Positions 33,174 to 34,008 of a stretch of DNA of 64,000 nucleotides are shown here, piece after piece. Made by a program: the position numbers and the translations under genes. Location: positions 3,291,910 through 3,355,909 of the forward strand of contig NZ_CP031165.1 of the NCBI RefSeq assembly GCF_003344865.1, given 5' to 3'. Each line of letters begins with the position of its first letter. The first letter of the stretch is position 1. This DNA is from Euzebya pacifica (GTDB lineage Bacteria > Actinomycetota > Nitriliruptoria > Euzebyales > Euzebyaceae). The notes beneath the pieces are model-generated. The model was not told where the DNA came from and ran no database searches. It saw only the letters and a program-made list of their open reading frames with translations.

Positions 33174-33241
33174 AGAACCTCCTGAACAGGTCGAGCCGGA
33201 GCGTACCCGCCACCGCCCGCGTGAAATGTCGCCGAAAATGC

Positions 33242-33271
33242 TTGACACCGTCCGCCCACAGGTGGCAATCT
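33242..33271 (+). promoter_or_regulatory. Consensus-like promoter upstream of small ORF
   Basis: TTGACA at 33242-33247 and CAATCT at 33266-33271, spacer 18. It would start a transcript about 40 bases before the small ORF at 33317, which has AAAGGAGG. A perfect -35 hexamer is rare in this window. Confidence 0.5.
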
Positions 33272-33316
33272 CCGCCGGCTACAGCAACCCCGAGCACTGG
33301 AAAGGAGGCAGCCCGA

Positions 33317-33427
33317 ATGCGTATCACTGTTCTCGACACCCCGATGTCGCTCGATACGGCCCACGTGACCGCGAGCAATCCGGCCGGATCGTCCACGCAC
33401 CGTCCGGGCTGTCCCGCTGCGGCATAG
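33317..33427 (+). CDS. Small 36-aa protein of unknown function
   Basis: Starts with ATG after AAAGGAGG at eight bases, one of the strongest ribosome sites in the window, and lies behind a TTGACA promoter. The peptide begins MRITVLDTPMSLDTAHVTA and ends with HRPGCPAAA, with a single cysteine; no signal peptide, no membrane segment. The next small ORF is 164 bases on, behind a set of hairpins. It could be a regulatory leader peptide for that ORF or a functional microprotein. No family recognised. Confidence 0.5.
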   Translation: MRITVLDTPMSLDTAHVTASNPAGSSTHRPGCPAAA

Positions 33428-33498
33428 GCCGCCCCCTTCCTCCTCCAGCTCCAACGACCCCCGTCCTGTCCGGGCGGGCTGTGCATCGTCGTTGTCGA

Positions 33499-33544
33499 CG
33501 AGCCGTCACGACGGCTCGACCCACCACCGCTGTCCCGGTGGTGG
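33499..33544 (+). promoter_or_regulatory. Adjacent hairpins between two small ORFs
   Basis: CGAGCCGTC/GACGGCTCG (33499-33518) and CCACCACCG/CGGTGGTGG (33521-33544), each nine perfect base pairs, lie in the 164-bp gap 33428-33591. A third GC-rich dyad (GGCCC...GGGCC) follows. They could form a structured 5' leader of the 74-aa gene. Confidence 0.4.
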
Positions 33545-33591
33545 CCCCTCGGCCCCGCTGCGGGCCATCGTGCTCGAAAGGTCCTGTTGTC

Positions 33592-33816
33592 ATGCTGCCC
33601 CACATCAACGGTGAGGTCGCCCGGTTGCACCGCGAGGAACTCTCGCGTGCCGCTGCGCTGCGTCGCCAGCATCCCCCCAGTCGTCGGCCGGCCCGCCGGG
33701 CCGGCACCGAACGTCCCCTTCCCGTTCGCTCCGCCCGCGGGCTGCGCCAGGCCATCGGCCTGTCGCTGATCCGGCTGGGCATGCGGTTCGTCGACCCAGC
33801 CGCCCTGCTGCGGTGA
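33592..33816 (+). CDS. Small 74-aa arginine-rich protein
   Basis: ATG at 33592 with AAAGG about ten bases upstream. The N-terminal helix VARLHREELSRAAALRRQH and the C-terminal GLRQAIGLSLIRLGMRFVD resemble short, basic actinobacterial proteins with an amphipathic or membrane-associating end, joined here by a basic, Pro/Arg-rich linker. Function unknown. A strong hairpin follows at 33836-33872. Confidence 0.55.
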   Translation: MLPHINGEVARLHREELSRAAALRRQHPPSRRPARRAGTERPLPVRSARGLRQAIGLSLIRLGMRFVDPAALLR

Positions 33817-33835
33817 GTGTGGCGCACCTCCCCAA

Positions 33836-33872
33836 CGCCTCCGTGGCATGCCCCACGACCGTCACGGAGGCG
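33836..33872 (+). terminator. Hairpin after the 74-aa gene
   Basis: Perfect 10-bp stem CGCCTCCGTG/CACGGAGGCG with a 17-base loop, 20 bases after the stop of the small gene. No U-tract follows. Terminator is the simplest reading. Confidence 0.5.
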
Positions 33873-33935
33873 CTTGGGGGCAACCCATGCCAACCCCAAC
33901 GAGGGAGCGTTGAGGAGGGAGGGCCCTGCGGGACC

Positions 33936-33950
33936 GGGACCTTCGGCCCC
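33936..33950 (+). promoter_or_regulatory. DosR/DevR-like box upstream of CBS-BON gene
   Basis: GGGACCTTCGGCCCC, a near-palindrome with one mismatch, centred about 66 bases before the GTG at 34009. It resembles the GGGAC-n5-GTCCC core of the actinobacterial hypoxia regulator DosR, whose targets in mycobacteria include CBS-domain proteins. No DosR gene is in the window. Confidence 0.45.
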
Positions 33951-34008
33951 TGACCGGCGGGCCCGCGCAGCGCACGATCGACACCTGCCGACATGGAGGT
34001 GATCGCCC

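Follow-up and report, generated by a model that had tools for sequence, protein, structure and literature searches.

The window, i.e., the 64,000-nucleotide stretch of Euzebya pacifica DNA analyzed here, comes from a genome of 6.37 Mb in two contigs. It includes an 835-bp gap (33174–34008) with a minus-strand histidine kinase gene (HisKA/HATPase_c) on one side and a plus-strand gene for a CBS-domain protein on the other, both assigned by Pfam. Two small ORFs, which we refer to as “ORF1” and “ORF2”, lie in the gap, separated by a 164-nt spacer that contains several hairpins (Table 1). A sequence-only reading of this DNA had listed a consensus promoter, a 36-aa ORF with AAAGGAGG, two 9-bp hairpins, a 74-aa basic ORF, a 10-bp hairpin, and a DosR-like box, and had proposed that the tandem hairpins between the two ORFs form a translation-coupled RNA switch. 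Both ORFs and the 10-bp hairpin are present as described. Of the two 9-bp hairpins, P3 has nine base pairs, but P2 has eight, and three further hairpins (the one at the ORF1 stop codon, P1, and P4) had not been listed. The TTGACA of the promoter is present, and the promoter scores better than shuffled sequences (p = 0.010), but its −10 element is weak, and a strict sigma-70 promoter/terminator scan of the interval found nothing. The palindromic box of the DosR/DevR regulon is GGGACTWWAGTCCC; the DosR-like site at 33936–33949, with three mismatches, is one of four matches in the window, where 4.12 are expected, and is best attributed to chance.

Table 1. Features of the interval between the kinase and CBS-domain genes (window coordinates)
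Feature	Position	Strand	Remarks
Promoter	33242–33271	+	TTGACA (33242–33247), spacer 18, weak −10 CAATCT (33266–33271); TTGACA-17/18-CANNNT in 4/4 genomes of the genus
Shine-Dalgarno of ORF1	33301–33308	+	AAAGGAGG
ORF1	33317–33427	+	36-aa leader ORF; peptide MRITVLDTPMSLDTAHVTASNPAGSSTHRPGCPAAA, not conserved
Stop-codon hairpin	33419–33432	+	GCGGC-ATAG-GCCGC, ORF1 stop codon in loop
C-rich, G-poor tract	33427–33473	+	possible Rho-loading site
Hairpin P1	33452–33494	+	CAACGAC/GTCGTTG; inner stem 33460–33478
Hairpin P2	33499–33518	+	8 bp
Hairpin P3	33521–33544	+	9 bp
Hairpin P4	33551–33566	+	5 bp; two pairs altered on both sides in G002
Shine-Dalgarno of ORF2	33577–33581	+	AAAGG
ORF2	33592–33816	+	74-aa arginine-rich protein
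Hairpin 3′ of ORF2	33836–33872	+	10 bp, no T-run; possible transcript end

To judge from its conservation and substitution pattern, ORF2 is a real gene that evolves as a protein. Its product has a pI of 12.0, with 22% Arg and no Cys; Cys is likewise absent from all seven members of the family for which it was counted. Homologues occur in all four genomes of the genus (E = 5e-33 to 2e-6), sharing 82% (G002), 52% (G001), and 44% (G003) identity over most of their length with the window's protein. In G002 and G001, as in the window, ORF2 is divergent beside a kinase gene, while in G003 it has other neighbors. Between the window's genome (G000) and G002, nucleotide changes in ORF2 are distributed 12/4/25 over the three codon positions, and dN/dS is 0.26. 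Profile searches found homologues in other families of the class and, weakly, across the phylum. In alignments, the family pattern starts with M-x-P and runs from a basic N-terminal part through a middle rich in arginine to a GLxLIRLGxRxxD-like stretch at the C-terminus. An AlphaFold model from the single window sequence has two helices (residues 4–26 and 48–67; pLDDT 73, pTM 0.30). Pfam gave no match for the window's ORF2, no convincing match for any member, and no WhiB among 14 members; there was no PDB sequence match, and NCBIfam, PADLOC, and PHROGs yielded no usable one. The protein may have an RNA- or ribosome-related role. A search of a limited literature collection found no publication on the leader element or the ORF2 family.

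In G001 (L004, minus strand), a long near-perfect hairpin, GGTGTGTCGGGAC...GTCCCGACACACC, directly follows ORF2 and is a likely transcript end, although without a T-run. On the far side of the interval, the 94 bases upstream of the CBS gene (33915–34008) are 91% identical in G002, where the preceding region has been replaced; the CBS gene therefore has its own conserved upstream region. In G002 (L017:2400–5445), a KaiC-type ATPase and a response regulator (Pfam), as well as a GC-rich tandem repeat absent from the window, lie between the CBS gene and ORF2.

ORF1 behaves differently from ORF2. In all four genomes of the genus, a TTGACA element (spacer 17–18), a strong Shine-Dalgarno (SD) sequence, and an ORF1 of 26–38 aa lie upstream of ORF2, with ORF1 ending 144–167 nt before it; the arrangement is kept in G003 despite the different gene neighborhood. 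A small ORF with an SD and an ATG start at such a distance is found in 2.6% of shuffles of the same upstream region, and at 213 of 6000 random positions in the window (3.55%). Between G000 and G002, ORF1 has changes of 7/6/7 by codon position, a dN/dS of 0.82, and a 6-nt in-frame indel, with the start codon and SD kept. No motif common to different genera was seen in the ORF1 peptides; an ending, RPxVxARxGV, is common to three g21 genomes. Compared across genomes in this way, ORF1 is conserved as a leader, in reading frame, start signal, and position of the stop codon, but not as a peptide. As expected in general of a uORF attenuator, the promoter and the main gene are separated by a short ORF that has a ribosome site of its own and is kept in relatives. 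The frequency of Cys codons in ORF1 is high but similar to a rough, uncomputed estimate for unconstrained GC-rich sequence, so we set aside the idea of a cysteine-sensing leader.

The arrangement extends well beyond the genus. In 13 of the first 21 loci of the class, there is exactly one SD+ATG ORF of 22–44 aa that ends 84–227 nt upstream of the ORF2 homologue, where dinucleotide shuffles predict 0.33 such loci in 21. A later profile (A6) added six plausible homologues, three of which have the ORF1 module (25, 32, and 30 aa), a test that is not fully blind because A6 was built from module members only. The class total is 16 of 27 loci with ORF1, 10 without, and one (G045) in which ORF1 is cut by the contig end; the 16 module loci span nine genera and three families. 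Among nine homologues examined from outside the class, none has an ATG-start ORF1 by the same rule, and three have a GTG-start frame. The homology of the weakest ORF2 members is a matter of judgment, and profile matches located within long unrelated frames, interrupted by stops, or without an M-x-P-like start were excluded by eye (e.g., L005, L025, L026, L029, L030, L039, L053, L064, L076, L080, and L135); the counts leave out L141 and many further weak profile matches. Two scans of genome collections returned no locus in one case and a single locus in the other, with the match in the same place as in G045.

Over 13 loci taken together, promoter scores upstream of ORF1 exceed those of shuffled sequences (Fisher p = 1.5e-10, with relatives that are not independent). 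Individually, G030 and G034 have p = 0.06, and no excess over chance is seen in G039, G057, or G018.

The hairpin around the ORF1 stop codon is, on present comparisons, the element that recurs across genera, unlike the tandem hairpins P2 and P3, which are common only to the window's genome and its nearest species. In other genera, the stop codon of ORF1 is enclosed by other stems, including GGAGTG-TAGGCAC-CACTCC, GGGACC-GACTGA-GGTCCC, CAGCCGC-GCTA-GCGGCTG, and GGACGGG-CTGA-CCCGTCC. A stop-hairpin score of at least 12 was reached by 15 of the 16 modules vs 3 of 28 control small ORFs, taken from the window and from loci retrieved for other purposes (Mann-Whitney p = 1.2e-6); with one module for each of the nine genera, p = 1.1e-4. 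Tested singly against shuffles, 6 of the 16 loci reach p = 0.05. When the test position was slid along the leader, the score peaked at the stop codon, with a second peak near +36, the site of the terminator-like hairpin described below for family f4. G018 has a weak stop hairpin and no excess of fold stability.

In family f4, a GC hairpin of 10–16 bp, with arms that are mostly GAGCCGGCGG/CCGCCGGCTC, is present in all nine module members, i.e., the eight with an intact ORF1 and G045, in which ORF1 is truncated and the hairpin is kept. Where ORF1 is intact, the hairpin lies 14–32 nt after its stop codon. Its tail is T-rich in G030, G032, G034, G045, and G048, weaker in G039 and G057, and CGTCGT in G055 and G054. 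The distal codons of ORF1 are complementary to the 5′ arm of this hairpin; the pairing is significant over the eight loci together (Fisher p = 0.0014), although only G034 is below 0.05 individually, and four of the eight have p values of at least 0.1. The pairing sites end 4–21 nt before the stop codon, in or near the footprint expected for a terminating ribosome. In G034, the putative antiterminator has 15 bp and −29.4 kcal/mol vs −20.2 for the terminator; the minimum-energy fold still favors the terminator hairpin, with or without a blocked stretch, meaning that any switching would have to take place during transcription. With a sigma-70-type model, no promoter-like site was found between the hairpin and ORF2 in any of the nine, so ORF2 expression would need read-through. 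On paper, the f4 unit is a textbook attenuator, with whiB7-type anatomy.

The window's genus is built differently after ORF1. No U-tract terminator was found in the window's interval, and the best hairpins of all four genomes of the genus lack T-rich tails. The 45 nt after the ORF1 stop codon in the window comprise 26 C and 7 G (58% C, 16% G). In the whole window, stretches of 45 nt that are as C-rich and G-poor number 19 of 63,955 on the plus strand and 2 of 63,955 on the minus strand; those on the plus strand cluster in three places, one of which is the tract after ORF1. The corresponding 45 nt contain 29 C and 6 G in G002, 23 and 12 in G001, and 20 and 14 in G003. The tract is strong only in G000, G002, and G015 of 13 loci, and weaker in G001 and G003. 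The fold of 33409–33608 has a z score of −2.13, with 3 of 200 shuffles equally stable. Because the genus has a C-rich, G-poor tract and tandem hairpins in place of an f4-type terminator, we infer a Rho-type or a translational version of attenuation there.

Several other possibilities for the spacer found no favor. Pairing of ORF1 with the spacer in G000 is no better than that of shuffled ORF1 (p = 0.61); across 13 loci, pairing with the whole spacer has a combined p of 0.13, with only G034 and G032 below 0.05. Pairing of the ORF1 SD with the pyrimidine tract after ORF1 gave p values of at least 0.07 at every one of 13 loci. Covariation of the tandem hairpins, a check that the sequence-only reading had suggested, could be assessed with two sequences, G000 and G002: 98.7% of cells are paired and there are three double-sided changes, which is not significant, since 56 of 500 shuffles equal it. 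In an Rfam search, no match in the window exceeded the gathering cut-off, and the two sub-threshold matches in the interval are unrelated. The outcome named in advance as speaking against that reading, a lack of conservation of the ORFs or hairpins in related genomes, was looked for, and conservation was found. Since a leader-like peptide, RNA structure, and a second ORF are conserved as an arrangement, the proposed “translation-coupled RNA switch” was right in kind, but the structure that recurs is the stop hairpin, joined in f4 by the terminator-like hairpin, rather than the tandem hairpins.

We conclude that the interval is probably a one-gene transcription unit for ORF2 under leader-ORF-dependent attenuation. 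Sequence comparison supports the architecture well, and with it the free ORF1 peptide, the stop-in-loop hairpin, and, in f4, the terminator-like hairpin with its antiterminator complementarity; for the mechanism in the window itself, our confidence is moderate. Transcription would start at the TTGACA promoter. A ribosome translating ORF1 to its stop codon would occupy both the distal codons of ORF1 and the hairpin at the stop, and full translation of ORF1 would lead transcription to end between ORF1 and ORF2. In f4, this would occur by formation of the intrinsic terminator; in the window's genus, it would likely be brought about by Rho, for which the exposed C-rich tract 3′ of the stop codon would be the loading site. 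If ORF1 were untranslated, or if ribosomes stalled early, alternative RNA pairing or ribosome placement would allow polymerase to read into ORF2; in f4, the alternative pairing would be the antiterminator formed by distal ORF1 codons and the 5′ arm of the terminator. Termination itself, its direction, and the Rho version in the genus are presumptive parts of this scheme. We take the direction of control from the position of the f4 antiterminator and from the whiB7/wblC and duf1127_1 systems (see below). Given read-through upon failure of ORF1 translation, ORF2 would be made when translation is limiting, and because the sequence of the ORF1 peptide is free, the natural signal would be the general state of translation and not a single amino acid. 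The recurrence of the leader and hairpins in distant relatives suggests a switch that makes ORF2 when ribosomes are in trouble.

Control in the window's genus could instead be translational: the transcript would always be full length, and its hairpins would mask the ribosome site of ORF2, AAAGGTCC, except when rearranged by a ribosome on ORF1. The minimum-energy fold of the full spacer pairs CAACGACC (33452–33459) with GGTCctGTTG over the ORF2 SD region, as an alternative to P1, and the lack of a detected intrinsic terminator in the interval would suit this scheme. However, the SD region of G000 is open in the centroid structure, the pairing is absent by eye from G001 and G003, and the f4 architecture is that of a transcription terminator. 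We regard this explanation as unlikely. Less likely again is that ORF1 and its hairpin form an independent small gene or small RNA, with ORF2 having its own promoter. The terminator-like hairpins after ORF1 in f4 would fit this, as would the ORF2 homologues without ORF1 at 10 of the 27 class loci. Yet a sigma-70-type model found no promoter-like site between the hairpin and ORF2 in the nine f4 loci or, between ORF1 and ORF2, in eight of eight other loci; moreover, the ORF1 peptide is unconstrained, and tight linkage of ORF1 and ORF2 is kept in nine genera.

It is still more improbable that the ORF1 peptide works as such, e.g., as a membrane or toxin-like peptide or with an arrest sequence. The in-frame indel with retained start and SD, and the shared g21 ending, would fit a functional peptide, but the even spread of changes over codon positions, the dN/dS, and the lack of a motif seen across genera do not; the g21 ending falls on the antiterminator strand and can therefore be accounted for by RNA pairing. 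Chance ORFs and hairpins in GC-rich intergenic sequence, which folds readily and has already supplied a chance DosR box, can hardly account for the interval, being contradicted by the homologues, the shuffle controls, the dN/dS values, the f4 pairing, and the stop-hairpin test.

The ORF2 family is also found in a second kind of wiring. Four of eight extracted neighbors were scanned by Pfam. Three ORF2 homologues without ORF1 (L114, L100, and L056) are divergent from a CGNR/ABATE gene in every case, and the fourth, L060, is divergent from an AraC/DJ-1-type regulator. G048 has both arrangements: one homologue (L041) with the leader-ORF module, and one (L114) beside a CGNR/ABATE regulator. Within f4, ORF1 is missing from homologues in G047 and G035 and from the second copies in G048 and G030. 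By eye, the family members at L090, L096, L101, and L069, which also lack ORF1, are likewise divergent from such regulators, and several regulator-linked family members have palindromic TTAC..GTAA-like promoters. Also by eye, the second copy in G030 (L140), an ORF2-like gene, follows repeated CTTTGCAAAG palindromes and seems to be divergent from an ArsR-like regulator, and the homologue in G047 (L024:1–100) lies directly behind an apparent tRNA-Leu gene. The regulator-linked wiring fits a stress-responsive role for the family, without proving it.

Attenuation of this kind is itself known; what is new, and partly supported, is a variant form of it in front of genes for small proteins of a family that has no name yet. 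The whiB7/wblC genes of actinomycetes have a leader ORF, a Rho-independent terminator, and an antiterminator that forms when uORF translation is disrupted (PMC11550727). The anatomy matches that of f4, but ORF2 is not a WhiB protein, having no Cys in seven of seven members and no WhiB Pfam match, and the window's genus has no U-tract terminator. In the Mycobacterium tuberculosis ilvB1 leader, a ribosome at the uORF stop codon masks the antiterminator strand (PMC13236596). Amino-acid attenuators of this type resemble the ORF1 system in the masked strand, but ORF1 lacks a run of regulatory codons, and ORF2 does not encode a biosynthetic enzyme. The Sinorhizobium meliloti duf1127_1 leader is a uORF-dependent attenuator by reporter assays and lacks an intrinsic terminator; the 45 nt after its uORF stop codon are 38% C and 18% G, the involvement of Rho and a response to translation limits were inferred, and DUF1127 proteins are small and arginine-rich (PMC12218461). 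It shares with the window a uORF before a gene for a small arginine-rich protein, a C-rich, G-poor post-stop stretch, and the lack of an intrinsic terminator. It differs in phylum and in the place of its first control element, which is at the uORF start, whereas the recurring element of the ORF1 system is at the stop codon (PMC12218461). Since the window's ORF2 has no DUF1127 Pfam match, the likeness is one of design, not membership.

More tentatively, and with doubt outweighing confidence, we propose a class-wide translation sensor of its own design that would drive expression of arginine-rich mini-proteins. The sequence of its leader peptide would be free, and selection would keep a strong start as well as the placement of the stop codon in the loop of a hairpin, which in f4 tops an antiterminator. 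The sensor would be an independently evolved actinobacterial counterpart of the uORF-controlled DUF1127 genes of proteobacteria. Because the family is elsewhere wired to divergent stress-type regulators (CGNR/ABATE), a protein sensor would have been replaced in evolution by a ribosome sensor ahead of one gene family. If leader-ORF-dependent attenuation of ORF2 is right, an intrinsic terminator has apparently been exchanged for another device between related families; the signature of a stop codon in a hairpin loop and an unconstrained leader peptide could be used to find attenuators that sense general translation; and the role of tiny arginine-rich proteins in translation stress becomes testable. 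Ribosome availability would then directly control tiny arginine-rich proteins in very different bacteria.
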